Shown piece by piece: positions 33,143-50,265 of a stretch of DNA of 64,000 bases. The notes beneath the pieces were generated by a model, which was not told the DNA's origin, ran no database searches, and saw only the letters and a program-made list of their open reading frames with translations. A program made the position numbers and the translations under genes. This DNA is from Maribacter arcticus (GTDB lineage Bacteria; Bacteroidota; Bacteroidia; Flavobacteriales; Flavobacteriaceae), in contig NZ_FUYL01000004.1 of the NCBI RefSeq assembly GCF_900167935.1, forward strand, positions 324,256 to 388,255, written 5' to 3'. The number at the start of each line of letters is the position of its first letter. The stretch's first letter is position 1.

Positions 33143-34144
33143 CTACACTTTTATATACTTACCTGGATTATTCTCAAAACTAACCTTACAACCATCACAA
33201 CAGAAATAAACCTTCTCACCTGCATATTCTATAATATGCTTTGGATTTTTCTTCGACACGGGTACATTACAAACCGGATTTATATAATACTCCTCATTAA
33301 ACTGATTATTCACATCAGCTTCAGTTTTGGAAGGTTTAGAGCTCCCGCAACAAGAACCACTACTGGTTTTTTCTTTACGAAAATCGTCAATTACCTCTGC
33401 TAATATACTTATAGCCACTTCACTAGCAAGTTTTGCATTAATGTCTAAACCTACTGGGCTGCGTAACTCTGAGATACGCGCATCGGAAATACCTGCATTG
33501 GTCAAATACGTTTTAATATCTTCTGCCTTTTTAGCACTAGCTACAAAGCCAACATAATTCACTGAAGTTTCCAAAGCCTTCTTTACAGAGAGTTCATCAT
33601 CTTCGCCTTGGGTTGTAATAATTATATACGTATTTGTCAAATTTTTAAAAGTGCTAAAATCCACTTTATCAGAAACACTATTGGCCGATGGAAACATTAG
33701 TAAATCTGCATCAGTCGCCATCACAGAAACTCTAAAATCAGCGGCCGAAGCCATTTGCACCAATTTACGGGCAATATTACTCTTACCCACTACAATTAAT
33801 TCGGGTTGTGGTATTACAGGTTCTATCATAATTTCTAGGGTTCCTTTGCTTTGACATGACATAACATATTCTTTAAACGTAGCTGTAGAACGTGTGCCAC
33901 CTTCAGGAGAAATACGCACGCGTCGGTAGCGTTTGCTTTTAATAACATCTAAGGCTTCTTTGATAACGATACCACGCACACAACCACCACCTATCCAACC
34001 GATAAGCTCACCGGTTTCTAAAATAAGGGCCTTATCCCCTACTTTACCAGAACTTGGGGCTATACGGTCTACCACTTGTGCAATGGCAAAGTTGGAGCCT
34101 TTGGCCAAGTGCTTTTCTATTTGTAACGCGAGTTCGTTAAACAT
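33143..34144 (-). CDS. coxF: CoxF/XdhC-family maturation protein with C-terminal YHS-type domain
   Basis: Residues 1 to about 265 form an XdhC/CoxI-type protein: FAIAQVVDRIAPSSGKVGDK, GWIGGGCVRG, and a Rossmann-like domain from PELIVVGKSNIARKL. Members bind molybdenum cofactor and pass it to xanthine- or CO-dehydrogenase-type enzymes. A Cys-rich linker (SGSCCGSSK) and a roughly 50-residue YHS/TRASH-type domain follow, with INPVCNVPVS and VYFCCDGCKVSF. In Oligotropha the coxF product is needed for installing copper; a metal-binding tail fits that role but is inference. Its start overlaps coxE by 8 nt. Confidence 0.85.
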   Translation of the reverse strand: MFNELALQIEKHLAKGSNFAIAQVVDRIAPSSGKVGDKALILETGELIGWIGGGCVRGIVIKEALDVIKSKRYRRVRISPEGGTRSTATFKEYVMSCQSKGTLEIMIEPVIPQPELIVVGKSNIARKLVQMASAADFRVSVMATDADLLMFPSANSVSDKVDFSTFKNLTNTYIIITTQGEDDELSVKKALETSVNYVGFVASAKKAEDIKTYLTNAGISDARISELRSPVGLDINAKLASEVAISILAEVIDDFRKEKTSSGSCCGSSKPSKTEADVNNQFNEEYYINPVCNVPVSKKNPKHIIEYAGEKVYFCCDGCKVSFENNPGKYIKV

Positions 34145-35273
34145 CCATCAATAATTTTTCTAATTTTAATAAACTATCCAAGTTGTGTGCTGATTCAAAC
34201 GCATCTAAATGCGGCATCACATTCACCATTCCTTTTTGAATAGGCTGATAACCTTCCATACCTTTTAACGGATTCAGCCAAACTAAGGTCTTGCATTTTC
34301 TGCGTATCGTTCTTACGGCCTCCCTAAGCACTGTTACGTTTCCTGTTTCAAGTCCGTCACTCAAAATCACTACAATATGTTTTTGACTCAAAAATTTACT
34401 TCCGTATACGGAAAGAAATTCCGTAAGCGACTCCCCTATCTTAGTGCCACTTGACCACGAATTTACATTCTTACCAATCTGCTTTAAAACTTCTTGTTCG
34501 TTGTTTTGTCGGAGCATTGGGGTAACATGTGTCAAGGTTGTACTAAAAGTAAAAAATTCAAGGCTCTTAAAATACTTCTTTAACACCATCACGTATCGTA
34601 AAAGATAATAGCTATAGGTGTCCATAGAACCACTTACATCGAGAATAAAAACCACTTTCCGCTTTTCTTTGCGTTTTCTTTTATGGGATAAATCTAACAA
34701 CATTCCACCTTTTGAAATTCCATGGCGAATCGTATTTCGAATATCAATTGTTCCCTTGTTAGCATTCTCAAGCCTACGTTTAAAACGCATACTCATTTGA
34801 TGAAAAAGCTCTTCGGCCAATTCTTCCAACTTTTCCTTATCAGCAACATTTACCTTAGAAAAATCGGTAAGTCTTAGTCGTATACTCTCATTTGCGCCAA
34901 CAGTTTCTTTAGCTTCTTGTTCTATGACTTCTTTTTTGGGTACCTTAAATTCTGTTCCCAAAAATATAACTGTGGCAGTCTCTTTTTCCTTTTTAAGTTG
35001 TTTGATTTGTTTTTTACGTTGTTCTAATCTCTCTTCGTAATAACGACTCCAAAAACGGTCGAACATTTCATCAAAGCGGTCAAAATGCTCTTTGCGTTTA
35101 CAATAAATAGCCTTTAAACTATACTGAAACAGCTTACGATCTAAAACCCAGCCTCGTTCTGCAACTTCAAAAGCATCCCTAGTTTCTTGAGGACCCAAAA
35201 CAAACTGACGCTCCCGACAATACATGGTGAAGTCGATGAGGCGTTCTTTGAATGTTTTTTCTACAGCTTGCAC
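34137..35273 (-). CDS. coxE: CoxE-like VWA-domain protein
   Basis: A 378-residue cytoplasmic protein with an N-terminal helical, Lys/Glu-rich half and a C-terminal von Willebrand A domain. The MIDAS motif is intact as DVSGSM, with a downstream Thr in SSGTKIGESL and ILSDGLETG. Partnered with the MoxR-type ATPase encoded just upstream, such proteins act in assembling cofactor sites; in aerobic CO bacteria CoxE is required for copper insertion. It overlaps coxF by 8 nt. Confidence 0.9.
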   Translation of the reverse strand: MQAVEKTFKERLIDFTMYCRERQFVLGPQETRDAFEVAERGWVLDRKLFQYSLKAIYCKRKEHFDRFDEMFDRFWSRYYEERLEQRKKQIKQLKKEKETATVIFLGTEFKVPKKEVIEQEAKETVGANESIRLRLTDFSKVNVADKEKLEELAEELFHQMSMRFKRRLENANKGTIDIRNTIRHGISKGGMLLDLSHKRKRKEKRKVVFILDVSGSMDTYSYYLLRYVMVLKKYFKSLEFFTFSTTLTHVTPMLRQNNEQEVLKQIGKNVNSWSSGTKIGESLTEFLSVYGSKFLSQKHIVVILSDGLETGNVTVLREAVRTIRRKCKTLVWLNPLKGMEGYQPIQKGMVNVMPHLDAFESAHNLDSLLKLEKLLMDV

Positions 35274-35360
35274 AGATTATAGAAATTTAGGTTTTTGAGT
35301 TTGAACTTATTTTTTTATAATGTTGAAGGCCTAGTCTAGGATTCCAATTAGGATGACATT

Positions 35361-36233
35361 CTAATCAATAGGATATAAAAATTCCTGAACAGACTTATTC
35401 CTCACAAACTCTACATCATCTTTATGTTTCAGAACACTACCAATGGTTGTTTTTACAATCTCATCAGTGATATTCTTTTGATTCATCAACAACAAGGTCT
35501 TTGCCCAATCTAGAGATTCTGCAATACCCGGTGGTTTATGTAAACTTGACTTTCTTAAATTGTGAATAAAAGTAACCACCTGTGTTGCCAATGCTTCATC
35601 AATATTCGGAAGCTTTTTAGCAATGATATCAATCTCTTTTGTTTTCGATGGAAAATCAACCCAATGATACAAACATCTTCGTCTTAAAGCATCACTGAGC
35701 TCTCGAGTTCGATTTGAAGTCAAAATAACCAAAGGTTTTGATTTTGCTTTTATCGTTCCCAATTCAGGTATACTAATTTGAAAATCAGAAAGTAGCTCTA
35801 ATAGATATGCCTCAAATTCTTCATCAGCCCTATCAATTTCATCAATCAACAGTACTACAGGTTTGTCAGCACTTATTGATTGTAACAAGGGGCGTTGAAG
35901 TACATAATCCATCCCAAAAATCTGATTTTGAAGCGCCAACTTATCTTCATCCTGCTCAAAAAGCTTAATGTGCAAAAGCTGTTTTTGGTAATTCCATTCG
36001 TAAATGGTAGTACTTACATCCAAACCTTCATAACATTGCAAACGAATTAAATTTGTGCCCAAATGTTCGGCCAAAGTTTTGCCCAGCATGGTCTTTCCAA
36101 CTCCTGGATTACCTTCTAATAATAAAGGTTTCTCTAAATTTTTCAAAAGAAAAATAGAAGTTGCCAGTTCTTCATTTAGAATATAGTCGTGCTCATAAAA
36201 ATCTTTTATAAGCTTTTCGATGTCTTTGTTCAA
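35361..36233 (-). CDS. coxD: CoxD-like MoxR-family AAA+ ATPase
   Basis: A 290-residue AAA+ protein. Walker A is GNPGVGKTM (about residues 40-48), Walker B VVLLIDEIDRAD, and the sensor-1 region VILTSNRTRELSDALRRRC is intact. In Oligotropha the homologue CoxD reshapes the CO dehydrogenase apo-form so that sulfur can be added to the Mo centre; the same role is likely here. It lies 66 nt after coxG, the gap containing a 12-bp hairpin. Confidence 0.92.
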   Translation of the reverse strand: MNKDIEKLIKDFYEHDYILNEELATSIFLLKNLEKPLLLEGNPGVGKTMLGKTLAEHLGTNLIRLQCYEGLDVSTTIYEWNYQKQLLHIKLFEQDEDKLALQNQIFGMDYVLQRPLLQSISADKPVVLLIDEIDRADEEFEAYLLELLSDFQISIPELGTIKAKSKPLVILTSNRTRELSDALRRRCLYHWVDFPSKTKEIDIIAKKLPNIDEALATQVVTFIHNLRKSSLHKPPGIAESLDWAKTLLLMNQKNITDEIVKTTIGSVLKHKDDVEFVRNKSVQEFLYPID

Positions 36234-36248
36234 TAGCTTTAATTTAGA

Positions 36249-36276
36249 AAAGCTATGCTGTCCCCAGCATAGCTTT
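36249..36276 (-). terminator. intercistronic hairpin between coxG and coxD
   Basis: Perfect 12-bp stem with a 4-nt loop (left arm AAAGCTATGCTG). On the transcribed strand it ends in TTTTC, so it may be a weak terminator or an RNA-stabilising stem. Part of its arm repeats the last codons of coxG (36298-36307). Confidence 0.55.
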
Positions 36277-36299
36277 ATTATTATAGATAATTAGTCTAG

Positions 36300-36770
36300 C
36301 TATGCTGCTGCCTCTGCCTCGGCAAGTTTCTTTGAAAAATTTGAAACAAACTGCTTAAAAAGCTGATTGGATACCGTTGTAATTAAACGAGAACCAAATT
36401 GAGCAATTTTCCCGTTTACGGTAACGTCCATTATGGCATCTAATTTCACTCCACCTTCAGCACGCTCACTAAGGTCAATAGTCATCATCATTTCAGCATT
36501 ACCGTTACCCTTAGAATCAACACCTTCACCTGTAATAATAATTTTGCGGTTCGCTTTATCAATTTCATTATAATGGATATCGGCATCGTATTTGACCCCC
36601 ATAGGACCGAATTTCATACCAACTTTCCCCTTATAATGATTTTCACCCACCTTTTCATCTATGGTGACACCAGGTACGCAGTCCATTATTTTTTCTGGAT
36701 CGATTAGGTGTTCCCAGACTAATTCTGTGCTTTGGGGCACTTCGAATGATTTATCTAATTGTGTTTTCAT
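36300..36770 (-). CDS. coxG: CoxG-like SRPBCC-domain protein
   Basis: A 156-residue START/SRPBCC-fold protein: SFEVPQSTELVWEHLIDPE, DCVPGVTIDEKVGENHYKG and the conserved C-terminal LITTVSNQLFKQFVSNF match the CO dehydrogenase subunit G family. It is not a catalytic subunit. CoxG has been linked to anchoring CO dehydrogenase to the membrane and to quinone handling; which applies here is open. It lies 226 nt downstream of coxL. Confidence 0.9.
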   Translation of the reverse strand: MKTQLDKSFEVPQSTELVWEHLIDPEKIMDCVPGVTIDEKVGENHYKGKVGMKFGPMGVKYDADIHYNEIDKANRKIIITGEGVDSKGNGNAEMMMTIDLSERAEGGVKLDAIMDVTVNGKIAQFGSRLITTVSNQLFKQFVSNFSKKLAEAEAAA

Positions 36771-36790
36771 AGTAGTGCAATTTTATTTCA

Positions 36791-36808
36791 TTCTCACAAA
36801 GGTGAGAA
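36791..36808 (-). repeat. small hairpin in the coxG leader
   Basis: A 7-bp stem (TTCTCAC with GTGAGAA) and 4-nt loop, 20 nt upstream of the coxG ATG, so near its ribosome-binding region. Confidence 0.45.
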
Positions 36809-36913
36809 CCTATTTATTTTTACTAAATGGTTAATTCAAGTAAAGGGCTTTCTAAACGAAGAACTACCCTACCCTAATGACTTGGGCTTTCAAACCCTCA
36901 GTCAAACAAAGTT

Positions 36914-36944
36914 GGATACCTCCCATTATTAGAAGGGAGGATCC
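36914..36944 (-). repeat. hairpin downstream of coxL
   Basis: GGATACCTCCC pairs with GGGAGGATCC with one bulged base and a 10-nt loop, 53 nt past the coxL stop. It has no T-run after it on the transcribed strand, so it looks more like a 3'-end stabiliser or partial attenuator than a full terminator. Confidence 0.5.
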
Positions 36945-36996
36945 ACTTTATTTTTCCTTTGTTCTTTGCTTTTGAAACTTCTAACCAAATACTTTA

Positions 36997-39363
36997 TTAT
37001 GCTTTCGCTTTTGCTACTTGAATAGCATCCCAAACCTTATCGGGAGTAATAGGAATATCCAAATGCTTAATTCCTAACGGATACAATGCATCTATTATCG
37101 CATTTGCAATTGCAGGTGGCGCACCTACCGTTGGTGATTCAGCAACACCTTTTGCACCTAATGGATGATGTGGTGATGGTGTAATAGTATGACCCGTTTC
37201 CCAATGTGGAGATTCTACTGCGGTTGGCACTAAGTAATCCATTAAAGTTCCATTCAAGACATTTCCTTCATCGTCATAAACGATACCTTCATACATAGCA
37301 GGGGCAATTCCTTGCGTTAGTCCACCATGTATTTGACCTTCAACAATCATTGGGTTGATGATATTTCCACAGTCATCGATAGCCACAAAGCGTTTTACAT
37401 CAATAGCTCCAGTTTCTTCCTCGACCTCAACTACACAAATATAAGCGCCGTTAGGGAAGGTTAAATTTGGTGGATCATAGTAATGTGTTGCTTCAAATCC
37501 GGGTTCCATTCCTTCTGGGAAATTCGTATACGCCGCAAAGGCTACATCTTGAATCGTTTTAGACTTTTCAGGGGCGCCTTTTACAAAGTACTTGCCAACT
37601 TCCCATTCAATATCCTCTTCGCTAACTTCTAACAAGTGAGCAGCAATTTTCTTGCCCTTATCACGAAGTTTACGTGCTGCTATCGCCGCAGCAGCTCCTG
37701 CTGTAGGTGTACTTCTACTTGCATAAGTACCTAACCCATAAGGTGCTGTATCTGTATCTCCTTCATCAATTTCAATATCAGTGTAAGGAATTCCCAATTC
37801 TTCCGCTAGAATCTGAGCGTAGGTCGTTTCATGACCTTGACCTTGTGACTTCGTACCAAAGCGTGCCAATGCCTTTCCTGTAGGATGTACACGTATTTCA
37901 GCACTATCGAACATCTTTATTCCTAAAATATCAAAATCTTTAGATGGTCCTGCGCCTACAACTTCCGTAAAAGTACAAATGCCAATACCCATCAATTTTC
38001 CTTGTGCTCGCTTCTCGGCTTGCTCCTTTTTATAATCGGCGTACCCAATCATATCCATGGCTTTTTCTAAAGTTTGTTTATAATCGCCACTATCATAGCT
38101 CCATCCTAAGGGAGAGGCATATGGAAATTGTTCCTTTTTAATAAAGTTTTCGAAACGTAATTGCGCAGGATCTTTACCTATTTCAGCAGCCAGTTTATCA
38201 ACCATACGCTCGATTGCATGTACAGCTTCCGTCACACGGAAAGAGCAGCGATAGGCTACACCACCTGGTGCTTTATTTGTATATACCGCGTCTAATTCTG
38301 CAAAAGCATGTTCGTAATCATACGAACCTGTACAGATAGAGAACATGCCCGTAGGATATTTAGAAGGATTAGCGGATGAATCTGTGTATCCATGATCCGC
38401 TAAAGTCGAAACTTTAAAGGCCTGAATTTTACCATCTTTGGTAGCCGCCAATTCACAGTCCATATGATAGTCACGTGCAAAGCCATTAACCAAATTCTCA
38501 GAACGATCTTCAATCCATTTCACTGGTTTTCCTATTAAAAAGGAAGCTGCAATAGCTATTACATACCCAGGATATACAGGCACCTTTCCTCCAAAACCAC
38601 CCCCAATATCAGGAGCAATAATTCGAATTTTTTCTTCAGATAGACCAACATGTCCGGCAACCAAGGCTAGAATAGTACGAATCGCATGTGGCGCCTGAGA
38701 TGTTAAATAAATCAACATTTTCTCGGTATCCTTATCATAGGAAGCAACCACACCACAAGTTTCAATAGATGCAACATGAATTCTTGGTAAATAAATACGT
38801 TCCTTTACAACCACATCGGCAGCGGCAATAGCAGCATCCGTTTTTGCCCTTTCGCCTCGTTCCCAATGGTAAATATGATTATCTTTTTGACCTTCTTTAT
38901 CAGGACGCAACAAAGGTGCATCTTTATCTAGGGCTTTATATGGGTCAACAAGTGCTTTCATTGGCTCGTATTGAACGTCTACAGCTTCTGCCCCATCAAC
39001 AGCAATATATCTATCTGTAGCAATAACAGCGCACACTTCTTGCGATTGGTGCATAACTGTATCCGTAGGTAAAACCATTTGTGAATCTGAAAGTAATGTA
39101 GGCATCCAATGCAAATTGTATTGCGCTAGGTCTTCTCCAGTAATGACAGCTAAAACTCCATCAATGGCCAACGCTTTTTCTTTATTGATACTTAAGATTT
39201 TGGCATAGGCGTAAGGACTACGCACAATGACCATATGCAACATGCCAGGTAATTTCACATCATCGGTAAACTTACCTTTGCCGTGCAAAAATCTTGCATC
39301 TTCTTTTCGTTTTACAGAGTGGCCCATTCCGCCAACCTCTGGTGATGTTTTACATTTAAACAT
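36997..39363 (-). CDS. coxL: aerobic carbon monoxide dehydrogenase large subunit, form I
   Basis: Catalytic molybdoprotein subunit, 788 residues, that oxidises CO with water to CO2 and passes electrons to the FeS subunit. The loop VAYRCSFRVTEA is the form I signature AYxCSFR; Cys373 would carry the copper of the Mo-S-Cu centre. Other cofactor contacts are GGGFGGK and KGVAESPTVG with the conserved Glu742. Xanthine-dehydrogenase-type relatives lack the CSFR loop. It follows coxS by 24 nt. No signal peptide, so it faces the cytoplasm. Confidence 0.96.
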   Translation of the reverse strand: MFKCKTSPEVGGMGHSVKRKEDARFLHGKGKFTDDVKLPGMLHMVIVRSPYAYAKILSINKEKALAIDGVLAVITGEDLAQYNLHWMPTLLSDSQMVLPTDTVMHQSQEVCAVIATDRYIAVDGAEAVDVQYEPMKALVDPYKALDKDAPLLRPDKEGQKDNHIYHWERGERAKTDAAIAAADVVVKERIYLPRIHVASIETCGVVASYDKDTEKMLIYLTSQAPHAIRTILALVAGHVGLSEEKIRIIAPDIGGGFGGKVPVYPGYVIAIAASFLIGKPVKWIEDRSENLVNGFARDYHMDCELAATKDGKIQAFKVSTLADHGYTDSSANPSKYPTGMFSICTGSYDYEHAFAELDAVYTNKAPGGVAYRCSFRVTEAVHAIERMVDKLAAEIGKDPAQLRFENFIKKEQFPYASPLGWSYDSGDYKQTLEKAMDMIGYADYKKEQAEKRAQGKLMGIGICTFTEVVGAGPSKDFDILGIKMFDSAEIRVHPTGKALARFGTKSQGQGHETTYAQILAEELGIPYTDIEIDEGDTDTAPYGLGTYASRSTPTAGAAAAIAARKLRDKGKKIAAHLLEVSEEDIEWEVGKYFVKGAPEKSKTIQDVAFAAYTNFPEGMEPGFEATHYYDPPNLTFPNGAYICVVEVEEETGAIDVKRFVAIDDCGNIINPMIVEGQIHGGLTQGIAPAMYEGIVYDDEGNVLNGTLMDYLVPTAVESPHWETGHTITPSPHHPLGAKGVAESPTVGAPPAIANAIIDALYPLGIKHLDIPITPDKVWDAIQVAKAKA

Positions 39364-39387
39364 AGTTAATTTATTTAGAGGTTAGAC

Positions 39388-39879
39388 TTAGACTGAAGCT
39401 TCTTTTTCTTTTGCCATTTCTGCCGCAGCTTGCTGCACAGATTTTACGATATTGTTGTAACCAGTACAACGACAAAGATTTCCTGAAATACCCCAACGTA
39501 TTTCTTTTTCAGTAGGGTTCGGGTTTGTTTTCAACAGATCTATTGACCTCATTATCATTCCAGGCGTACAGAAACCACAATGCAGACCATGTTGGTCATG
39601 AAATGCTTTTTGCAGCGGATGGTTTGTACCATCTGCGGCAATACCCTCTATTGTTGTGATTTCAGCACCATCTGCTCGAACAGTTAAGTAGGTGCAAGAC
39701 TTGACCGATTTACCATCTATTAAAATTGTGCACGCACCACAGCTTGATGTATCACACCCAATATGTGTGCCTGTCATATCTAAATTTTCTCGAATAAAAT
39801 GAACCAAGAGCAAGCGCGAATCTACCTCGGCAGTAACGCTCTTTCCATTTATTGTCATTGTTACTTTATGTTTTGCCAT
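39388..39879 (-). CDS. coxS: carbon monoxide dehydrogenase small (2Fe-2S) subunit
   Basis: A 163-residue protein with two 2Fe-2S clusters. The plant-type ferredoxin cluster is [15 protein letters not shown] with a downstream Cys in KSCTYL, and the C-terminal cluster uses CGFCTPGM and CRCTGY. It carries electrons from the Mo site of CoxL to the FAD of CoxM. It begins 6 nt after the coxM stop. Confidence 0.95.
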
Positions 39880-39885
39880 AATTCT

Positions 39886-40755
39886 TTATTTTCTTGCTCT
39901 CTCTAAAGCCTTGTTCAACATTCGTTTTGTTATTGTATTTACTATCGACCGTTTATAAGCTTCTGAACCTCTTAAATCAGATTCAGGCTCGGCATCTTCA
40001 CCAGCTATAACACCAACTTGTTCAATGAGTTCATCTGTTATTTTTTTACCGCGAAGTATTTCCTCGCCTCTTTCCAATCGCATCGGCACTGCGCTAACAT
40101 TAGTTAGTCCGATACCTATTTCTTGGCATACCCCATCGTCGTCTAGTTCAATATGAACGGCAACACCAGCCGTTGCATAATCACCAACTTTACGTTCAAC
40201 CTTATGATATGCACCACCGCTATTCTTTTTTGTTTTTGGAATTTGAATTTCAGTCAATATATCACCAGGCTCCAAAGCAGTCATATAAAATCCATGAAAA
40301 AAATCATCGATTGGAATTGATTTTTTCCCATCAACGCCTTCAGCAATTATCGTCGCTCGCAATGCTAACATCAACGCTGGTTGGTCATTGGCAGCATCAC
40401 CATGGGCGATATTACCACCTATAGTTCCACAGTTTCTAACCGAAGGATCAGCAGTTAACCAAACTGCATCACCGAAAATCGGGTAATTTTCTTTTAAATT
40501 CGGATTATGTTCTAGTTCAGTTTGGGTGGTCAACGCACCTATTTTCAAAAGATTTCCCTCCTCTTTAATGTAAGAGAGCCCTTTAATTTTACTGATATCG
40601 ATAATGTGTTCTGGAGTGGCAAAACGAAGTTTCATCATCGGCAATAGACTATGTCCGCCAGACATGTATTTCGCTTCTTCGCCAAGCTCTTGTGACAAGG
40701 CAATCGCTTCTTTCAAAGTATTAGCCTTGTGGTAATTGAAATTAGCTGGAATCAT
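39886..40755 (-). CDS. coxM: carbon monoxide dehydrogenase medium (FAD) subunit
   Basis: A 289-residue FAD-binding subunit of the CO dehydrogenase/xanthine dehydrogenase family. The FAD contacts MSGGHSLLPMMKLR (about residues 31-44) and TIGGNIAHGDAANDQPA are both intact. It is the first gene of the cox operon; the M-S-L order is the one seen in form I clusters. The promoter region shared with the cysteine desulfurase gene contains a Crp/Fnr-like dyad. Confidence 0.95.
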   Translation of the reverse strand: MIPANFNYHKANTLKEAIALSQELGEEAKYMSGGHSLLPMMKLRFATPEHIIDISKIKGLSYIKEEGNLLKIGALTTQTELEHNPNLKENYPIFGDAVWLTADPSVRNCGTIGGNIAHGDAANDQPALMLALRATIIAEGVDGKKSIPIDDFFHGFYMTALEPGDILTEIQIPKTKKNSGGAYHKVERKVGDYATAGVAVHIELDDDGVCQEIGIGLTNVSAVPMRLERGEEILRGKKITDELIEQVGVIAGEDAEPESDLRGSEAYKRSIVNTITKRMLNKALERARK

Positions 40756-40818
40756 AATGTTTTAGGAATTAAATTACGTAGTAAGCATTAAATATACCTC
40801 AAATACATTAAAATAACA

Positions 40819-40832
40819 ATGATGTAGATCAT
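40819..40832. promoter_or_regulatory. candidate Crp/Fnr-family operator in the cox promoter region
   Basis: ATGATGTAGATCAT is a dyad of the form TGAT-N4-ATCA, the core pattern bound by Crp/Fnr regulators, 64 nt upstream of coxM and 124 nt upstream of the divergent desulfurase. Such a short pattern is expected a few times by chance in a sequence this AT-rich. Confidence 0.35.
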
Positions 40833-42165: not shown

Positions 42166-42180
42166 AATCAATCCTGAAAA

Positions 42181-43287
42181 TTAGTTTCGCTCATGAATCG
42201 GTCCAACCTTATTGCGAAGCATGCCTCCGGTATTTCCAGAAAGAACACTTAATATTTCACTGAATAAACTCATAGCTATTTCTTCTGGTGTATTGGCGCC
42301 TATTTCTAATCCGCATGGCGCATAAATTCGTTGAAGTTCATCTTTTGAAAACTCAAAACCATTTAATTTAAATTCTGCAATCATTTTATCAAAGCGTTTT
42401 CTTGGTCCTAAAGAAGCTATATAAGGAGCGGGGCTATTTACCAATTGTCTTAGATTTTCATAATCGGTTTTATAATCATGTGCCATTAAAATAATTGCTG
42501 TACGACTATCTATTTTTGGGCGGGCATCAAAATCTTTTAGATAGATGTATTTTACAGATTGTAATTTTTCCTTTTTGAGCTTCTGAACATTACCTACTAA
42601 GCTTACATCCCAATCCATCAATTTTGCCATTTCAAGCATGGGGTATACATCATAATTGTCACCATAAATTGCTAAATGAAATTGCGGTGGAATTAGTTCG
42701 ATAAAAACACTTGCCTTCACCCCTTGGTTTTCAAAATGATAGGTTTTCGATTTTTGGTTTTCTAAAACATCTTTAATTCTGTCTTGAAGAAAATTTCGTA
42801 ATCCATTAGGTTGGCAATCTTCTAAAGACGCTGAATGCTTATTATAATAAAAACTTCTTCCTAATGGTATAGTTTCTATTTGGGTATTTAGCGCTGTTAC
42901 CGTAGTGATAACATGAAATCCTCTATCTGAAACACATTTCTGTAACATTTCTAAAGTAGCAGAATTTTCAGAAATAGGTGAAATCAAAACATCAATGACC
43001 CCATTACAACCTAAACCGACACCAATTTCATTTTCTTTAGAAGTGTCATAGGTTACAATAGATGGTTCTTGTTTAAGAATTGCGATTTGAGAACGTTGTA
43101 AAGCATCTCCCTCTAAACATCCTCCACTTATTCCGCCTTCAAAAACCCCAGATTCAAAAACAAGCATTCGAGCACCTTCTCTTCTATATGATGACTCTTC
43201 TACTCTCACTACCTGCGCTATGGCACATTTCTCACCAGATTCTTTGAAATTATTGTACAGTTGAAGAATCGATTTAATTTCTTTCAT
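42181..43287 (-). CDS. XdhC/CoxI-family protein (second copy)
   Basis: A 368-residue XdhC-family protein: CAIAQVVRVEESSYRREGAR, GGISGGCLEGDALQRSQ and IGVGLGCNGVIDVLI in the N-terminal domain and a Rossmann-like C-terminal domain (HDYKTDYENLRQLV, ASLGPRKRFDKMI, CGLEIGANTPEEIAMSL). Unlike the first copy it has no YHS tail. Homologues bind and protect the molybdenum cofactor and hand it on for sulfuration and insertion. Divergent from moaA, convergent with the desulfurase. Confidence 0.88.
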   Translation of the reverse strand: MKEIKSILQLYNNFKESGEKCAIAQVVRVEESSYRREGARMLVFESGVFEGGISGGCLEGDALQRSQIAILKQEPSIVTYDTSKENEIGVGLGCNGVIDVLISPISENSATLEMLQKCVSDRGFHVITTVTALNTQIETIPLGRSFYYNKHSASLEDCQPNGLRNFLQDRIKDVLENQKSKTYHFENQGVKASVFIELIPPQFHLAIYGDNYDVYPMLEMAKLMDWDVSLVGNVQKLKKEKLQSVKYIYLKDFDARPKIDSRTAIILMAHDYKTDYENLRQLVNSPAPYIASLGPRKRFDKMIAEFKLNGFEFSKDELQRIYAPCGLEIGANTPEEIAMSLFSEILSVLSGNTGGMLRNKVGPIHERN

Positions 43288-43379
43288 TTTTATAGGTTAT
43301 AATTTTCTTTTTCGCATTAACAAAGCTAATATATCTAAAAATACCTATATTCAATATTCTTAAACTCCCGAGTATTGCT

Positions 43380-44363
43380 ATGAAGGATTCCTTTGACAGA
43401 ACTATAGATTATGTTCGTATTGCTGTAACAGACCGCTGTAATTTGCGGTGCTTTTACTGTATGCCGGCAGAAGGCATACCCTATGAACCTAAAGCACATT
43501 TACTTAGTTATGAGGAAATTACTCGATTACTAAAAGTATTAGGTGAACTGGGTTTTCAAAAAGTACGATTTACCGGTGGCGAACCTTTTCTTCGTAAAGA
43601 TTTCATGAAATTGTTGGAAAATACTGCAGGATTAGATGATTACAAATCCATCCATATTACTTCAAACGGCACACTTTTACAAAAACATATTCCGAAATTA
43701 AAGGAATTAGGAATCACCAAAATCAACCTAAGTATTGACTCTTTGGATAAGGAACGCTTTCATAAAATCACCCGTCGTGATGATTTTGAAAAAGTAATTG
43801 AGACATTTCACATGCTCATTGACAACGGATTTAAAATCAAACTGAATGCGGTCATCATGAAAGGTATCAATACCCAAGATATTATTCCTTTAGCAGAATT
43901 GGCTAAAGATTATCCTGTTGATGTACGTTTTATTGAAGAAATGCCTTTTAATGGTGGATATAAAGAAAATGTAGAGATGTATTCGGCACGTGATATCAAT
44001 GCCGATTTAAAAGCGCATTTTTCTGGTTTAGAAGAAATTCCTGGTAAACATGGTGATACTGCAAGTTTGCTTTCGGTACCTGGTTACAAAGGGAATATTG
44101 GCGTAATTGCCGCTTTCTCAAGAACCTTTTGTAATACCTGTAATCGACTTCGAATATCTTCTAAAGGAGAAATCAAAAGTTGTTTGTATGATGATGGCGT
44201 TTTTAATATTCGTGATTATATGCGCTCTGGAGTTACAGATTTAGAATTAGCGGATAAGTTTAGAGAAATCGTTCGCCTCAAACCAAAAGACGGATTTGAA
44301 GCAGAAAAAATGCGGAAATCTCCAAAAGATGCAATGCAAAGTATGAGTAGTATAGGAGGATAA
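43380..44363 (+). CDS. moaA: GTP 3',8-cyclase
   Basis: Radical-SAM enzyme that starts molybdopterin synthesis from GTP. The N-terminal 4Fe-4S motif is C20-x3-C24-x2-C27 (TDRCNLRCFYCMP). The C-terminal cluster is in FCNTCNRLRISSKGEIKSC, and the conserved terminal Gly-Gly (SSIGG) needed for activity is present. The 327-residue length is standard. It is followed one base later by moeA. Confidence 0.96.
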   Translation: MKDSFDRTIDYVRIAVTDRCNLRCFYCMPAEGIPYEPKAHLLSYEEITRLLKVLGELGFQKVRFTGGEPFLRKDFMKLLENTAGLDDYKSIHITSNGTLLQKHIPKLKELGITKINLSIDSLDKERFHKITRRDDFEKVIETFHMLIDNGFKIKLNAVIMKGINTQDIIPLAELAKDYPVDVRFIEEMPFNGGYKENVEMYSARDINADLKAHFSGLEEIPGKHGDTASLLSVPGYKGNIGVIAAFSRTFCNTCNRLRISSKGEIKSCLYDDGVFNIRDYMRSGVTDLELADKFREIVRLKPKDGFEAEKMRKSPKDAMQSMSSIGG

Positions 44364-44364
44364 T

Positions 44365-45579
44365 ATGGAAAACACTTTTATTCCCTACGAAAAAGCCCTT
44401 TCAATTTTAGAAGAACACAAAGGCGAATTCCCCATTGAATCAAGAAACTTAGAAGATTGTATTGGTGCCTATCTTGCAGAAGACTTATTAGCTGACCGTG
44501 ACTTCCCTCCTTTTGATAGAGTTACCATGGATGGTATTGCCATTGTTTATGGCACTTTTGAAAATGGAAAACGAACTTTTAATATTGAATCGGTCGCTGC
44601 TGCGGGAACTCCACAACTTACTTTAAAAGACACTCAAAATTGTATCGAAGTAATGACAGGCGCTATAATGCCCAACGGAGTTGACACGGTAATTCGTTAT
44701 GAAGACCTTACAATTGAGAATAATCAAGCTACAATTAATCTTGATTCCTTAAATCACAAACAGAATGTGCATTTCAAGGGAATAGATATTGCACAAGGGA
44801 CCAAAATTGTCAATCAAGGAAAAAAGCTTTCGAGTGCCGAAATAAATATTGCCGCCGCAGTAGGAAAAGCTTCCTTGCTGGTTAAGAAAATGCCCAAAGT
44901 GGTTATTTTTTCAACGGGAGATGAATTGGTACCTGTACATCAAACCCCAAAATTACATCAAATACGAAGGTCGAATATTTACGGAATTCAAGCAACGCTA
45001 AAAGAATGGGGGGTTTTAGCTAAACTAGAGCATTTAGCGGACAACAAAGAAGAAATGTTAGCAACCATTTCGGTATTGCTCAAGGAATACGACCTTTTTA
45101 TTTTTACAGGAGGCGTATCAAAAGGAAAATTTGATTACCTACCTGATGTGCTTGAAGAATTAAAAGTTAAAAAACACTTTCATAAGATTCAGCAACGCCC
45201 AGGCAAACCTTTTTGGTTTGGAAGTAATACAGAAGGGAAAAAGATTTTTGCCCTTCCAGGGAATCCAGTTTCTTCTTTTGTATGTGTATATATGTATTTG
45301 CAGTTTTGGCTTCAAAAATCATTGGGTATTGAACAGGAAGTCCTTCATGTAAAGCTCAAAAACGATGTAGAATTTAAACCAGACTTGGTATACTTCTTAG
45401 AAGCAACTTTAGAAAGCAACCCTGACGGAACTCTTTCTGCTGAGGCGATTAAAGGAAATGGCTCAGGTGATTTCGCTAATCTCGTTAAAACGGACGGATT
45501 TTTAATATTACCGCAAAATAAAAGCCAATTTTTTGCGAATGAAGTCTATCCTTTTGTACCTTACCGTACAAAATGGTAA
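44365..45579 (+). CDS. moeA: molybdopterin molybdenumtransferase
   Basis: Inserts molybdate into adenylated molybdopterin. The 404-residue protein shows DFPPFDRVTMDGIAI, the MTGAIMPNGVDTVIR segment, STGDELV, the FTGGVSKGKFDYLP motif and LPGNPVSSFVC, all standard for MoeA. No separate mogA/moaB (MPT adenylyltransferase) is present in the window, so that step needs a gene elsewhere. It is 1 nt after moaA. Confidence 0.95.
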   Translation: MENTFIPYEKALSILEEHKGEFPIESRNLEDCIGAYLAEDLLADRDFPPFDRVTMDGIAIVYGTFENGKRTFNIESVAAAGTPQLTLKDTQNCIEVMTGAIMPNGVDTVIRYEDLTIENNQATINLDSLNHKQNVHFKGIDIAQGTKIVNQGKKLSSAEINIAAAVGKASLLVKKMPKVVIFSTGDELVPVHQTPKLHQIRRSNIYGIQATLKEWGVLAKLEHLADNKEEMLATISVLLKEYDLFIFTGGVSKGKFDYLPDVLEELKVKKHFHKIQQRPGKPFWFGSNTEGKKIFALPGNPVSSFVCVYMYLQFWLQKSLGIEQEVLHVKLKNDVEFKPDLVYFLEATLESNPDGTLSAEAIKGNGSGDFANLVKTDGFLILPQNKSQFFANEVYPFVPYRTKW

Positions 45580-45588
45580 ACTATTGGT

Positions 45589-46053
45589 ATGGAAACCATA
45601 AAGACAACTTGCTGTAAAACTAAATTTGTTTCAGTCAAAAAAGTGGAAGCTGCAAGCGGCTCTATGTCTTTTATTTCCACCATTTTAATGATTCTCATCC
45701 CCAAGTGTCCGCTTTGTTTGACAGCCTATATGAGCGCTATGGTACTATTCTTCGATGTTGAATATTCAACCTTGGTTCCTGTATTACTACATACAAAACC
45801 TATTATGGCACTTTTAATCATCACCATGATTCTGTTAAATAGAAAAGATAAGAGAACTTATATTTCTTTGGGGATTGCAGGGATTGCATTGACCTTTTTG
45901 GTTTTAAAAACCTATTTCGCTACCGCTTTGTTGTTACCTGATTGGATACTATATATCGCATTTATATTTGCGATTTGGTACAATGGTAACTTCCAATATT
46001 TTTACCGGTTCTTGAAATCTAAAAAAAATAGCCAAGTAGTTGCTAAACCATAA
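45589..46053 (+). CDS. four-helix membrane protein with CC and CPLC motifs
   Basis: A 154-residue membrane protein with about four hydrophobic segments. Two possible metal-binding sites are visible: an N-terminal Cys pair (KTTCCKTK) and CPLC at the end of the first helix (MILIPKCPLCLTAYMSAM). The layout recalls MerC-type small metal transporters, but I cannot assign it to a family. It starts 9 nt after moeA and is probably cotranscribed, which makes transport of a metal for the Mo/Cu enzyme a plausible but unproven guess. Confidence 0.65.
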   Translation: METIKTTCCKTKFVSVKKVEAASGSMSFISTILMILIPKCPLCLTAYMSAMVLFFDVEYSTLVPVLLHTKPIMALLIITMILLNRKDKRTYISLGIAGIALTFLVLKTYFATALLLPDWILYIAFIFAIWYNGNFQYFYRFLKSKKNSQVVAKP

Positions 46054-46117
46054 TCAATATCTTTACATCAATTCGGACAACCATAATAAAACCGAACAAT
46101 TTATAATAGAACAAAAA

Positions 46118-46594
46118 ATGACCTCCAGTAGCAAAAGAGAATTTCTTGCCAATTCATTTCCTAAGCTTTTGAACAACTTAAACATAGACACAAAAGCAAA
46201 TTTCGGGCTCATGACACCTCAACATATGGTTGAACATTTAATAATGGCTTTAGGGAGTGCTACGACTAAATTTGAAGGAGAAAGAATAAAACCTGCTTCT
46301 GAGCAACAATTGGGTATGCAGCAGTTTATAAAAAGTGGATCTGTTTTGGTTCACAGACCAAGTGAAAAAACAAAAGCAGATTTACCGCCATTGAAATACG
46401 CATCAATAGAAGAAGCAATTACAAACATTCCTGATGCAGTCGAAAAATATTATGCCTTTCAAGACAATAACCCAAATTACATACCTTACGCTTCTTTCAT
46501 GGGTGAGGTCTCTTATGAAGATGAAGAGTTATTTCATTACATGCATATTAAATATCACCTATGGCAGTTTGGTTTACTTGAGCAATATCCTTAA
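46118..46594 (+). CDS. DUF1569/DinB-like protein
   Basis: A 158-residue soluble protein. MTPQHMVEHLIMALGSA near residue 30 and the C-terminal EELFHYMHIKYHLWQFGL resemble the histidine-bearing helices of the DinB/DUF1569 four-helix family, where His residues bind a metal. No biochemical role can be given. The start is taken at 46118; a frame opening at 46040 overlaps the preceding gene and adds no recognisable sequence. It converges on the TauE gene with a 15-nt gap. Confidence 0.65.
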   Translation: MTSSSKREFLANSFPKLLNNLNIDTKANFGLMTPQHMVEHLIMALGSATTKFEGERIKPASEQQLGMQQFIKSGSVLVHRPSEKTKADLPPLKYASIEEAITNIPDAVEKYYAFQDNNPNYIPYASFMGEVSYEDEELFHYMHIKYHLWQFGLLEQYP

Positions 46595-46609
46595 AAAATC
46601 TTGGTGATT

Positions 46610-47383
46610 TCAAAACTGCAACCCATTAACAAACAGAACCCGAATTCCAACAATCAACACCAAAATTGCAGTAACCACTTTAATACCGTTTCCTGTAAGT
46701 TTACTTAAGCTTAAACGAATTCCAATTTGTCCTCCTATAAACACGGCAACAATTAGACCACTAGCTTCTATCCAAGGGAGTTCGAACATTCCTTTTGTCA
46801 ATAAACCACCTATGCCTGAAATAGAATTCACCAGGATAAAAAAGCTAGCCAACGCCGCAATTTTGATTGATTTATCCCACTTCATATGATTAAGAATAGG
46901 TGCTAAAAAAATACCTCCACCTATTCCTACCAATCCAGACAACAGACCAATTCCTGCCCCTAACAAATATGTTACATATGGGGGATAATTCGGATTCACC
47001 TCTTCCGATTTCTTCAGTTTCAAAGTCTGAAATATCAACGCTAAGGCAGATACTATTAAAGCACCTCCTAAAATGATAAAGAAGACTTGCTCAGATAATC
47101 GAAATCGCGCTCCTAAAAAGGCAAATGGAATACTTGCCAATATGAAAGGTAAAAACTTTTTAAAATCTAAGTGTCCGTTTTTCCAATAGAGATAAGTACT
47201 ACCAGAAACGACAACCAGATTACAAATCAAAGCCGTACTTCTAATGGCAAAAAAACTTGTCAAAACCAATGCTAATAAGGCTAAATAACTAGAACCACCC
47301 CCAAAACCTACTGAAGAATAGAGCGTTGCAATGACCAAAAAGCCAAGCATTAATAATACAAGTTCGGTAACAGTTAGGAGCAT
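46610..47383 (-). CDS. TauE/SafE-family anion transporter
   Basis: A 257-residue inner-membrane protein with about eight helices. The repeated glycine-rich loops of the TSUP family are clear: YSSVGFGGGSSYLALLAL and LLSGLVGIGGGIFLAPIL. Family members move sulfite, organosulfonates or other anions. It is the last gene of the moaD operon and overlaps moeB by 10 nt, so its substrate may relate to sulfur traffic of cofactor synthesis. No modABC molybdate transporter is present in the window. Confidence 0.85.
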   Translation of the reverse strand: MLLTVTELVLLMLGFLVIATLYSSVGFGGGSSYLALLALVLTSFFAIRSTALICNLVVVSGSTYLYWKNGHLDFKKFLPFILASIPFAFLGARFRLSEQVFFIILGGALIVSALALIFQTLKLKKSEEVNPNYPPYVTYLLGAGIGLLSGLVGIGGGIFLAPILNHMKWDKSIKIAALASFFILVNSISGIGGLLTKGMFELPWIEASGLIVAVFIGGQIGIRLSLSKLTGNGIKVVTAILVLIVGIRVLFVNGLQF

Positions 47384-48441
47384 AAAGCCAAATACTGGTT
47401 TAGACCTCCTAAAATACTAAAAAGCGAACTTTGTGGGTGCTGTTCGCGCAATTGTTTTAGAGCGGTCTCACTTCGTTTTCCTGATTGGCATAATAAATAC
47501 ACGGGGAGTGAAAAGTTAATCTTCCCAGTATTAGCCTTTAATTCATTTAAAGGGATATGAACGGAATCTGGTAGATGATAATTTTTAAATTCCTCAATCG
47601 TACGTACATCAATAATTTGTGGCTTATCAACTAGTAATTTTTGAATTTCTTGTGCTTCAATTGTTGGAACGATTTCGCAAGGGTCATTCCACTCATAAAA
47701 ATCTTGCAGCTTTTCAATTTTTATATTTTCGGGCTGTAATTTGAATTTTATTTTTTGATAAGATTGTTGGAGGCCATCAAAAATCAACAGTTTTCCCGAA
47801 AGCAAATCCCCAATTCCAGTGAGTACTTTAATAGTTTCTAAAGCCTGCAGGTTACCTATGATTCCGGGGATAATTCCAAGTACGCCATGTTCATTACAAT
47901 TCGGAACCTCATTTTCATTAGGCATATTTGGAAAAAGACAGCGGTAGGTTGGTCCATCCTTATAATTAAAAACACTTACTTGACCTTCGTAACCATGCAA
48001 TGCACCATACACAAAAGGCTTTTTAAGGATTACGCAGGAATCATTCACTAAATAGCGGGTAGGAAAGTTGTCTGATGCATCAACCACAATATCATAATCC
48101 GCTATAATTTCAAGAGCATTTTTTGTGGTTAAAAATGTATTAAAAATGACTATCTCGGTATTTGGATTTTGTGCCTTTAGTTTCTTTAGCGCCGCTTTTA
48201 CCTTCGATTGGCCTATATCACTTTCCGAATATAGTACTTGGCGGTGTAAATTAGTAAGCGAAACAATATCATTATCTACAATGCCAATGGCACCTACACC
48301 CATTGCGTTCAAGTATGTAAGTACTGGTACACCTAGACCCCCAGCACCAACCACCAAAACTTTTGCTTCGGCAAGTTTTTTTTGGCCTTCTATGCCGAAG
48401 CCCTTAAGAATGGTTTGTCTGGTATAACGTTGGTTGTTCAT
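47374..48441 (-). CDS. moeB: MoeB/ThiF-type adenylyltransferase fused to a rhodanese domain
   Basis: A 355-residue fusion. The N-terminal ThiF/MoeB domain (VVGAGGLGVPVLTYL, VDNDIVSLTNLHRQ, NPNTEIVIFN, VVDASDNFPTRYLVND) adenylates the C-terminus of MoaD. A conserved Cys is in PNCNEHGVLG. The C-terminal rhodanese domain (IDVRTIEEFKNYHLPDSVHI) has a catalytic Cys in LLCQSGKRS and can carry persulfide sulfur. The fusion puts activation and sulfur transfer to MoaD on one chain. It follows mobA after 2 nt. Confidence 0.92.
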   Translation of the reverse strand: MNNQRYTRQTILKGFGIEGQKKLAEAKVLVVGAGGLGVPVLTYLNAMGVGAIGIVDNDIVSLTNLHRQVLYSESDIGQSKVKAALKKLKAQNPNTEIVIFNTFLTTKNALEIIADYDIVVDASDNFPTRYLVNDSCVILKKPFVYGALHGYEGQVSVFNYKDGPTYRCLFPNMPNENEVPNCNEHGVLGIIPGIIGNLQALETIKVLTGIGDLLSGKLLIFDGLQQSYQKIKFKLQPENIKIEKLQDFYEWNDPCEIVPTIEAQEIQKLLVDKPQIIDVRTIEEFKNYHLPDSVHIPLNELKANTGKINFSLPVYLLCQSGKRSETALKQLREQHPQSSLFSILGGLNQYLALCS

Positions 48442-48443
48442 GC

Positions 48444-49034
48444 TTATGCCAATTTCTCCAATGCCTCTTTATAATCCTCCTCAGAGTTGGCGTTCAACAA
48501 AACATTCTCATATTTCGGAAACACCAATTTCGTATAATGATTGATAAGATATTTTCTCGGGCAAGTCCCGTTCCCACTTTCTAAATAAGTAATAGATTGT
48601 TGCAACGCATGCGGTTCCCAAATTGCACATAAAGGTTCTGGTAGCGGATTCTCTTTTAAAGCGAAGGCAGTTGCTTCTTTTGCGGTATCGCGTTGGGAAA
48701 TCAATTCTTTTAAGGCGTCTAAATCCATTAGAGGAAGGTCACAGGCTAAAACTAGCCAAGCCACATCTGGATATTTTTTGTGTGCAGACAAAAGTCCGTT
48801 GTAAGGTCCTTTGAATTCATTTAAATCAACAATAGTTTTCATAGCCGTTGGTAGTTCATCTTCCTGTTCTTCACGCAGACTAATGAAAGTATTTTCGCAA
48901 ACTTGACTAAGTAAATTGTACAAATATTCACGTTGAGGAATGCCGTGATATTCAATCAATCCTTTGTCTGTACCCATTCGAGTACTCTTCCCTCCAGATA
49001 AAACGAGACCGTATAGTTTAGCGATTGAAGTCAT
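48444..49034 (-). CDS. mobA: MobA-like molybdenum cofactor nucleotidyltransferase
   Basis: A 196-residue NTP transferase that adds a nucleotide to molybdenum-bound pterin. The nucleotide-binding motif is LSGGKSTRMGTDKGL (about residues 12-26), followed by VDLNEFKGPYNGLLSA and LACDLPLMD. The LSGG start is like the guanine-binding LAGG of MobA, not the TAAG segment of cytosine-specific MocA. CO dehydrogenase is known to use the cytosine form, so specificity is in question. It overlaps moaC by 17 nt. Confidence 0.88.
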   Translation of the reverse strand: MTSIAKLYGLVLSGGKSTRMGTDKGLIEYHGIPQREYLYNLLSQVCENTFISLREEQEDELPTAMKTIVDLNEFKGPYNGLLSAHKKYPDVAWLVLACDLPLMDLDALKELISQRDTAKEATAFALKENPLPEPLCAIWEPHALQQSITYLESGNGTCPRKYLINHYTKLVFPKYENVLLNANSEEDYKEALEKLA

Positions 49035-49491
49035 TCTTACCTCCTGTTTTTTGTTCTAATTGTATTTCAGAAATTTTGATATCATGCGACAAGGCCTTAC
49101 ACATATCGTAAATAGTTAATGCACTGACAGAAACTCCCGTTAGGGCTTCCATTTCAACCCCAGTTTGCTCGTTACATTTTACTTTGCAGGTAATTTGTAA
49201 AGCATTTTTTATTGGGGCTATATCTATCTGTATTTTGGAAAGATTGAGTTGATGACAAAGCGGAATTAACTCAGCAGTCTTTTTAACCGCTTGAATTCCT
49301 GCAATAACGGCTGTTTGAATTATACTTCCTTTATGTCCCAAAAAGTCTTGAGAGGCCAAGGTATCAAAAACATCTGAAGGAAAAACAACTTTTCCCGTAG
49401 CAACCGCTGTTCGCACTGATACTTGTTTATTTGACACATCTACCATTGAGGCATTGCCAGATTCGTCTATATGTGAAAGTTGTTTAGTCAT
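49018..49491 (-). CDS. moaC: cyclic pyranopterin monophosphate synthase
   Basis: Acts after MoaA to make cyclic pyranopterin monophosphate. The 157-residue protein has family landmarks MVDVSNKQVSVRTAVA, GIQAVKKTAELIPLCHQL, VKCNEQTGVEMEALTGVSV and LTIYDMCKALSHDIKI. The active-site Lys lies in the C-terminal region near QKTGGKNDF. It lies 112 nt downstream of moaE. Confidence 0.95.
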   Translation of the reverse strand: MTKQLSHIDESGNASMVDVSNKQVSVRTAVATGKVVFPSDVFDTLASQDFLGHKGSIIQTAVIAGIQAVKKTAELIPLCHQLNLSKIQIDIAPIKNALQITCKVKCNEQTGVEMEALTGVSVSALTIYDMCKALSHDIKISEIQLEQKTGGKNDFNR

Positions 49492-49603
49492 ATGTATTGT
49501 TATGTACCTATAAGATGGAGGTTGTTTTAATCTTAGGTTTATCGAGTTTATTTCATATTTAAATAAAACTCTTTAACTCCATAATTCAAAAAAACTTTAA
49601 AAT

Positions 49604-50023
49604 TTATGGATGCGCCGATACCCAAACAGATTTGTTCTCAAAACGTTCTTTTTTCCAAATTGGGACAGTTTTTTTAAGGGTGTCTATTAAATACCTACAA
49701 GCCTCAAAACAAGCATCTCTATGTGCAGAAGAAGCACCTACGACAACTACAGGCACTTCAACTTCTTTTAAACCAACTGCATGACGAATAATCACTTTAT
49801 TTAAATTCCATTTAACAACCGCATCCGACGCAATTTTGTCCATTTCTTTTAAAGCCATTTTCTTATATGTCTCAAATTCCAAAGAAACTACCTCTTCTTC
49901 CCTTGTAAATTCTCTCACAGTACCTACAAACACGCAAATACCTCCGCTCTTAGGGTGAGAAAGCTCCTTAAACACTTGCGAAGCATCAATATTATCTACT
50001 ATTTCTACTATTTTTTCACTCAT
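49604..50023 (-). CDS. moaE: molybdopterin synthase large subunit
   Basis: With MoaD, converts cyclic pyranopterin to molybdopterin. The 139-residue protein shows SGGICVFVGTVREFT, SLEFETYKKMALKEM, RHAVGLKEVEVPVVVVG, SAHRDACFEACRYLID and the final KTVPIWKKERFENKSVW containing the conserved active-site Lys and Arg. Its start overlaps the moaD stop by one base. Confidence 0.95.
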   Translation of the reverse strand: MSEKIVEIVDNIDASQVFKELSHPKSGGICVFVGTVREFTREEEVVSLEFETYKKMALKEMDKIASDAVVKWNLNKVIIRHAVGLKEVEVPVVVVGASSAHRDACFEACRYLIDTLKKTVPIWKKERFENKSVWVSAHP

Positions 50024-50265
50024 TATCCTCCACTTACAGGTGGTATGATTGCTATTTCATCATCCACAGTTAAAGATACGTCATCTTCTGCATATTCACT
50101 ATTTACAGCTACCGCCAAAGAAGTTAATTTTGAAAGTTCTGGATAAGAAATTATCAACTGAGCCTTTAAATCAGCAACAGAATTAGGCCTTTTAAATTCA
50201 TCAGAAAATGTAATTTGAGAACTTCCCACAATGTCTTTGGCAATCCCAAAAAAAAGTACGTTCAT
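50023..50265 (-). CDS. moaD: molybdopterin synthase sulfur carrier subunit
   Basis: An 80-residue ubiquitin-fold protein ending in the functional Gly-Gly (IIPPVSGG), which is adenylated by MoeB and then carries a thiocarboxylate. N-terminal NVLFFGIAKDIVGSSQ and AVNSEYAEDDVSLTVDDE match the family. It is the first gene of the moaD-moaE-moaC-mobA-moeB-tauE operon. Confidence 0.93.
   Translation of the reverse strand: MNVLFFGIAKDIVGSSQITFSDEFKRPNSVADLKAQLIISYPELSKLTSLAVAVNSEYAEDDVSLTVDDEIAIIPPVSGG

Follow-up and report, generated by a model that had tools for sequence, protein, structure and literature searches.

How copper reaches the Mo-Cu site of aerobic carbon monoxide dehydrogenase (CODH) is an open question in the field, and a locus of Maribacter arcticus (Flavobacteriaceae) raises it together with a second question, namely how such a system enters a genome. 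The stretch analysed, below called the window, comprises 64 kb (positions 324,256 to 388,255 of contig NZ_FUYL01000004.1, assembly GCF_900167935.1) and holds a cox operon beside genes for the molybdenum cofactor (Moco). It is probable (about 0.74 by our own estimate) that this is a form I operon whose maturation protein CoxF would carry copper on a C-terminal YHS domain, and that it would have arrived by replacing the Moco locus resident at the site. The enzyme belongs to a known class, of which it is a new member; within this class, the Moco-locus replacement and the metal-binding tail of CoxF set the system apart. A tail that is fused to CoxF and apparently swappable is new and occurs in most lineages examined, and the replacement would be a specific way in which CO oxidation could have become so patchily distributed among marine Bacteroidota.

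The operon consists of the following seven genes (papers cited by PMC number, here and below, in the portions available):

39886..40755, minus strand: coxM, FAD subunit, by gene order and homology (40.6% to O. carboxidovorans CoxM)
39388..39879, minus strand: coxS, 2Fe-2S subunit, with 8/8 cysteines matching O. carboxidovorans CoxS
36997..39363, minus strand: coxL, form I Mo-Cu catalytic subunit (TIGR02416, AYRCSFR motif, form I clade)
36300..36770, minus strand: coxG, likely membrane link for electron transfer (PF06240; role from PMC4240915)
35361..36233, minus strand: coxD, AAA ATPase with a TTG start (PF00004/PF07728), Mo sulfuration by analogy (PMC4240915, PMC3471820)
34137..35273, minus strand: coxE, VWA protein with a GTG start (PF05762 VWA_CoxE, 179.7 bits)
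33143..34144, minus strand: coxF, with XdhC_CoxI (PF02625), XdhC_C (PF13478) and a C-terminal YHS domain (PF04945, residues 288-331)

The order M-S-L-G-D-E-F on one strand (33143-40755), which the original prediction had given, is borne out, and all seven open reading frames (ORFs) are open. Against the equivalog model of the aerobic CODH large subunit (TIGR02416) CoxL scores 1194.9 bits with a cut-off of 991, among solved structures its best relatives are large chains of CODH (8uem, 1ffu and 1n5w), and residues 370-376 read AYRCSFR with Cys373 as the motif cysteine, exactly as claimed. By alignment to the pHCG3 protein, Cys388, Gln240 and Glu763 of O. carboxidovorans CoxL, which we take to be catalytic, correspond to Cys373, Gln223 and Glu742, and in CoxS the eight cysteines for two 2Fe-2S clusters are all kept. 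The proposed CoxL phylogeny was run with 60 rows and separates 50 form I from 10 form II-like rows (Shimodaira-Hasegawa-like approximate likelihood ratio test, SH-aLRT, 100), with the window CoxL nested in a Flavobacteriaceae clade on the form I side; the form II label stands here for annotation plus the motif AYRGAGR, presumably the form II signature, and not for an assayed form II enzyme. The motif, the family model, the catalytic residues and the tree all assign the operon to form I (Mo-Cu) CODH, for which it is complete, and a form II or xanthine-dehydrogenase-type identity is ruled out by motif, family model and tree. The GC content of coxL (0.417) is the highest in the window, a rise that was not used as evidence because CoxL is a large conserved gene.

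Like the plasmid pHCG3 of Oligotropha (Afipia) carboxidovorans, the window encodes coxMSL with the AYRCSFR loop, the catalytic residues and the CoxS cysteines, and also coxD, coxE, coxF and coxG. Unlike pHCG3, where the order is M-S-L-D-E-F-G, it has coxG directly after coxL, linked Moco genes and a cysteine desulfurase, and its CoxF carries a YHS domain, whereas the CoxF of O. carboxidovorans has 280 amino acids and no YHS. The CODH produced by coxE and coxF mutants of O. carboxidovorans lacks Cu (PMC4240915), and CoxD has been tied to Mo sulfuration (PMC4240915; PMC3471820). That CoxF supplies the copper is a proposal of Pelzmann et al. 2014 (PMC4240915), who also called finding the missing CODH maturation factors a future challenge. 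Transferred to the window, CoxMSL would oxidise CO and pass electrons to the respiratory chain with CoxG as the probable membrane link, Mo would likely be sulfurated by CoxD and the cysteine desulfurase, and Cu(I) would be inserted by CoxF with CoxE, the YHS domain of CoxF carrying the copper for insertion on a flexible linker.

The YHS domain of CoxF scores 40.0 bits against PF04945 (cut-off 30.3), and its Cys292, Cys315 and Cys319 are kept in 72, 71 and 72 of 73 YHS domains, respectively. In an AlphaFold2 model (mean predicted local distance difference test, pLDDT, 83) residues 260-283 fall under 50 and the blocks of 291-330 lie at 79-86, which suggests a disordered linker followed by an ordered YHS domain. 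A fold search with this model at E<=0.001 returned only the XdhC-type structures 2we8, 2we7 and 3on5 and is uninformative on the metal.

The distribution of such tails was counted by domain profile in 89 complete and distinct CoxFs of form I systems, obtained from 112 form I-like CoxL loci after removal of 15 without CoxF, 5 with a truncated CoxF and 4 identical copies, and after addition of L249, which has its CoxL on another contig of the same genome. One YHS domain is found in 71 of them, two in one, an HMA domain in 8 and neither in 9. Two borderline rows are scored as YHS, Deinococcus L196 (29.1 bits, just under the Pfam cut-off) and the cox-positive Maribacter genome G012. None of 65 other XdhC-family proteins of the same loci has a YHS or HMA domain. 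Pfam confirmed the YHS in CoxF of Thermomicrobium, a haloarchaeon, a metagenome-assembled genome (MAG) of Gemmatimonadetes, an actinobacterial MAG and Paraburkholderia, and the tandem YHS belongs to a Calditrichia MAG (L221:1248-2393). In a tree of the CoxF core only, with 8 outgroup rows and a selection of 52 of the 89 that omits close relatives, HMA and YHS rows share one clade (99/98), and four state changes are enough to explain the tails. Among 397 genomes of the family, the 11 that have a form I CoxL, and no others, encode a CoxF with YHS (E<=1e-15), and six other XdhC matches end before the YHS. In G012 the CoxF frame (L143:5514-6428) breaks within the YHS at a homopolymer, which may be a genuine break or a sequencing error.

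The HMA domain (PF00403), which we take to be of the copper-chaperone type, is a tail of CoxF in relatives and not in the window. In a Rhodothermales MAG it scores 31.4 bits (cut-off 24.8) and has an MSCxxC motif, and in the order of this MAG, among 114 genomes, all nine CoxF matches have an HMA-like tail. A further HMA tail, that of L238 (G519), stands outside the 89, as its short contig does not extend to CoxL. The domain, its partner and its distribution suggest that the CoxF tail would be a swappable copper-delivery module, and the simplest reading would be a tethered copper donor that has been exchanged for HMA in one lineage.

Several points weigh against this. Metals other than copper can also be bound by YHS and HMA domains, copper being here the putative metal, and the suspected copper site of O. 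carboxidovorans CoxF has been placed in the core (PMC4240915). The nine tail-less CoxFs, from eight alphaproteobacterial plasmids including that of O. carboxidovorans and from Nonomuraea, mean that the tail is not universally required, and the Neomarinimicrobiota loci L050 and L054 each have a tail-less CoxF-like protein in addition to a tailed one (the tail-less ones being counted among the 65). The locus sample also leans to relatives of the window, because most loci were found starting from its CoxL, and the flavobacterial rows are non-independent. It could instead be that the tail senses copper or redox state, or that it is a zinc module with a structural role, which we consider rather unlikely. 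In the adenylyl cyclase of Mycobacterium phlei a C-terminal, tethered YHS with conserved cysteines, like that of the window, is a copper-responsive switch that regulates cyclase activity and responds to Cu2+, its probable ligands being three cysteines and one aspartate (PMC4626032), and alphaproteobacterial CoxF is tail-less, that of O. carboxidovorans being functional (PMC4240915). The YHS of the window, unlike that of the cyclase, is fused to an XdhC-type maturation protein, and a role as sensor or structural module sits less well with a tail on the very protein that is needed for copper insertion, with its absence from all 65 other XdhC proteins of these loci, and with the replacement of YHS by HMA in the Rhodothermales-type order.

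MHYT-like genes lie near eight of the nine tail-less loci (L194, L202, L213, L214, L215, L217, L218, L219) and near one of 80 tailed loci, the single match there (L203) being a gene annotated as LytTR. This association is confounded by phylogeny because all eight loci are alphaproteobacterial. The MHYT-annotated proteins of pHCG3 have no match within the window.

That the strain oxidises trace CO for energy, as the original prediction proposed, may be expected from its genes. The operon could also be intact and silent, or serve CO detoxification or another substrate instead of energy gain. A precedent of this sort is Robiginitalea biformata, a related flavobacterium (Flavobacteriaceae) that encodes an uptake hydrogenase and did not substantially consume H2 (PMC10305171), but the seven open genes with their catalytic residues kept and a CoxL that in the Flavobacteriaceae loci found is 90-99% identical to that of the window (99% in M. 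orientalis), which suggests selection for function, make such an explanation unlikely. Form I CoxL is encoded in 11 of 397 genomes of the family and in 4 of 36 of the genus, the own genome counted. The trait is thus uncommon in this part of the Bacteroidota, as predicted, and it is already in print for the phylum (PMC6794299, PMC13203968, PMC13240472, PMC10305171). For those published loci, which share the form I CoxL, neither a Moco-locus replacement nor a CoxF tail is described in the portions available. Searches of the open-licence literature, which takes in few papers from subscription journals, listed none that connects YHS or HMA with CoxF, or CODH spread with Moco-locus exchange; two reviews on selenoproteins mention 'YHS domain' as well as 'CO dehydrogenase', in the parts available in separate table rows.

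The second question concerns the genes beside the operon, which are split between both strands:

40956..42146, plus strand: cysteine desulfurase of the NifS/IscS type, which may supply the sulfur of Mo-S-Cu (best IscS/NifS, below equivalog cut-offs; PF00266)
42181..43287, minus strand: second XdhC/CoxI-type maturation protein (xdhC2), without YHS (only PF02625 and PF13478)
43380..44363, plus strand: moaA (TIGR02666, 350.8 bits, cut-off 284), sole MoaA match of the genome at E<=1e-40
44365..45579, plus strand: moeA (only the general molybdenum-cofactor domain TIGR00177 passed)
45589..46053, plus strand: cox-linked protein of 154 amino acids, reads as hydrophobic, with an N-terminal CC and a CPxC
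46040..46594, plus strand: ORF of 184 amino acids, family unnamed
46610..47383, minus strand: TauE/SafE permease (PF01925)
47374..48441, minus strand: moeB-type gene with a C-terminal rhodanese-like part (MoeB subfamily model 276.3, cut-off 266)
48444..49034, minus strand: mobA-type nucleotidyltransferase (PF12804; MobA models below cut-off)
49018..49491, minus strand: moaC (TIGR00581, 178.8 bits, cut-off 141.5)
49492..49603, no strand: gap after moaC, where the resident moaA stands in 14/15 fetched cox-negative Maribacter loci
49604..50023, minus strand: moaE (best match MoaE, under cut-off)
50023..50265, minus strand: moaD (TIGR01682, 57.2 bits, cut-off 66 not reached)

The predicted Moco genes moaA, moeA, moaD, moaE, moaC, mobA and moeB were recovered by family searches, several of them below cut-off; the cysteine desulfurase, the second XdhC, the TauE-type permease, the genes for 154 and 184 amino acids and the YHS of CoxF had not been part of the prediction.

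The comparison with relatives that lack the block, which had been proposed as a check, was made at this site. The site is linked to relA, and it was fetched from 15 of the 32 cox-negative Maribacter genomes (the flanking names rlmB, htpX, relA, fur and purA are our labels for proteins with the Pfam assignments SpoU methylase, M48 peptidase, RelA/SpoT, FUR and adenylosuccinate synthetase, respectively). Each of the 15 has a plain Moco operon there and lacks cox; moeA, tauE, moeB, mobA and moaC are present in every one, and moaA follows moaC in 14 (not in G001). In the three cox-positive Maribacter compared (G000, the own genome, G019 and G012) the left part consists of coxFEDGLSM, the desulfurase gene, xdhC2, the 154-amino-acid gene and a moaA and moeA of another type, whereas the resident copies of moeA and moaA are absent from the site. 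Throughout the genus, moaA of the island type (82-100%) is encoded in all four cox-positive genomes and a type of 39-46% in 31 of the 32 others; the remaining one (85% complete) has no moaA match at E<=1e-40. G001, by relA the closest cox-negative relative, has a relA-linked Moco operon without moaA and a second, divergent Moco cluster elsewhere (L127, L128).

Trees of the flanks and of the Moco genes conflict. G010, in which the Moco genes are split over several ORFs, was excluded from these trees and from the pair identities. In the flank tree, built on 22 rows of rlmB-, htpX- and relA-type proteins, the 17 Maribacter form one group (100/100), and the cox-positive ones stand in two separate places within it, G000 and G019 among cox-negative species and G012 beside the cox-negative G032 (98/98). 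In the Moco tree (tauE, moeB, mobA and moaC, 26 rows) the cox-positive Maribacter group with G076, G108, G161, G452 and G327 (99/95), of which the first four are cox-positive and G327 is without form I CoxL, and the 14 cox-negative Maribacter rows form one clade (100/100). Forcing a single Maribacter clade on this tree cost 53.4 log units and was rejected (approximately unbiased test, p-AU 0.00025). Also the identities agree: for the 91 pairs of cox-negative Maribacter, Moco identity tracks flank identity with a residual standard deviation of 2.0, and for all 42 pairs of a cox-positive and a cox-negative Maribacter it is 63.4-66.7%, on average 11 points under that trend, while the window and G452, which belongs to another genus, share 80.1%. 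With moaE and moaD, G000 and G019 group with the cox-type G108 and G327 (96/89), and G012 groups with resident Maribacter types (82-88 bootstrap on the nearest branches). The right breakpoint thus seems to differ between G000/G019 and G012, which points to at least two separate replacements of the Maribacter Moco locus.

It is on these grounds likely that the cox island came to this Maribacter in exchange for the resident Moco locus: the native operon would have been overwritten by cox, moaA, moeA and adjoining Moco genes from outside, presumably by homologous recombination. An insertion of cox into an empty site is ruled out, as the site in the fetched cox-negative relatives has a Moco operon, two of whose genes the compared cox-positive genomes lack. 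Insertion by an integrase at a tRNA was also rejected, since the 64-kb window has no tRNA, and the family matches of ORFs scanned over 27289-56630 include neither an integrase nor a transposase.

The original prediction held that the block may have moved as a unit. Within Maribacter the conflict between flank and Moco trees supports this; for other loci the claim fails, and the cox half appears sometimes to have moved without the Moco half. Among 27 Flavobacteriaceae loci the cox tree puts L006 and L015 beside the window and the desulfurase-xdhC2-moaA-moeA tree puts them far off (in the two clade tests on cox versus Moco halves, the groups were chosen after the identities were seen), and G108 has the two halves on different contigs, so that transfer always as one unit is ruled out. 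The cox-positive G095, which stands outside the cox-positive group of the Moco tree, likewise speaks against the replacement as described, and G241 and G413 have the cox-linked Moco type at the relA site without cox. Vertical descent, with the cox-linked Moco allele ancestral in Maribacter, lost by most species, and the plain Moco operon gained later, finds some support in that the cox-linked type stands at the same relA-linked site in related genera (G452, G076, G095, G241, G413), which makes the site old, but it is quite improbable, since the Moco genes of cox-negative Maribacter track their flanks and form one clade and so look resident, the flank tree has the cox-positive rows at two separate points, and G012 has kept resident-type moaE and moaD.

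The replacement of the Moco locus would have a consequence for the host. The single MoaA match (E<=1e-40) and the single MoeA of the genome are both encoded on the island, and three other xanthine-oxidase-family large subunits elsewhere, so it is proposed that the remaining host molybdoenzymes now depend on island moaA and moeA. The cofactor of form I CODH is molybdopterin cytosine dinucleotide. Two findings on the cofactor genes count against the main reading: PF00994 is found in the own genome only in the island MoeA and in a CinA-type protein, so that this search returned no stand-alone MogA/MoaB, and the only MocA-like protein of the genome lies outside the island (TIGR03310, 138 bits, under the cut-off of 186).

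A wider reading, to which we give even odds, would make CoxF a metallochaperone whose exchangeable tail (YHS, tandem YHS or HMA) is the copper donor for the Mo-Cu site across bacteria and archaea, with the CPxC protein (45589-46053) possibly importing metal in Bacteroidota, and with a spread in Flavobacteriaceae by overwriting of the host Moco locus that makes every molybdoenzyme of the host reliant on the genes brought in. Relatives of this 154-amino-acid protein were found in 49 fetched loci, every one of a cox-positive genome (some genomes were fetched twice), and in none of 19 cox-negative Moco loci. Its CPxC is invariant, with C40 and C43 in 48/48 aligned rows, and one distant relative is weakly like MerC (17.9 bits, cut-off 27.6); a role as metal importer or transporter is a guess from these features. 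The 184-amino-acid ORF (46040-46594) had no match in Pfam and NCBIfam at E<=0.001; it adjoins the 154-amino-acid gene and is matched in part of the cox loci examined only.

Apart from form I, 13 further genomes of the family have only a CoxL homologue of 42-43%, and four of the 11 form I genomes also have one. Six of these that were fetched (L204-L209) group with the form II-like rows of the CoxL tree. Such form II-like homologues thus amount to 17 of 397 family genomes, and the matches of G344, G288 and G229 each hold one TAA.

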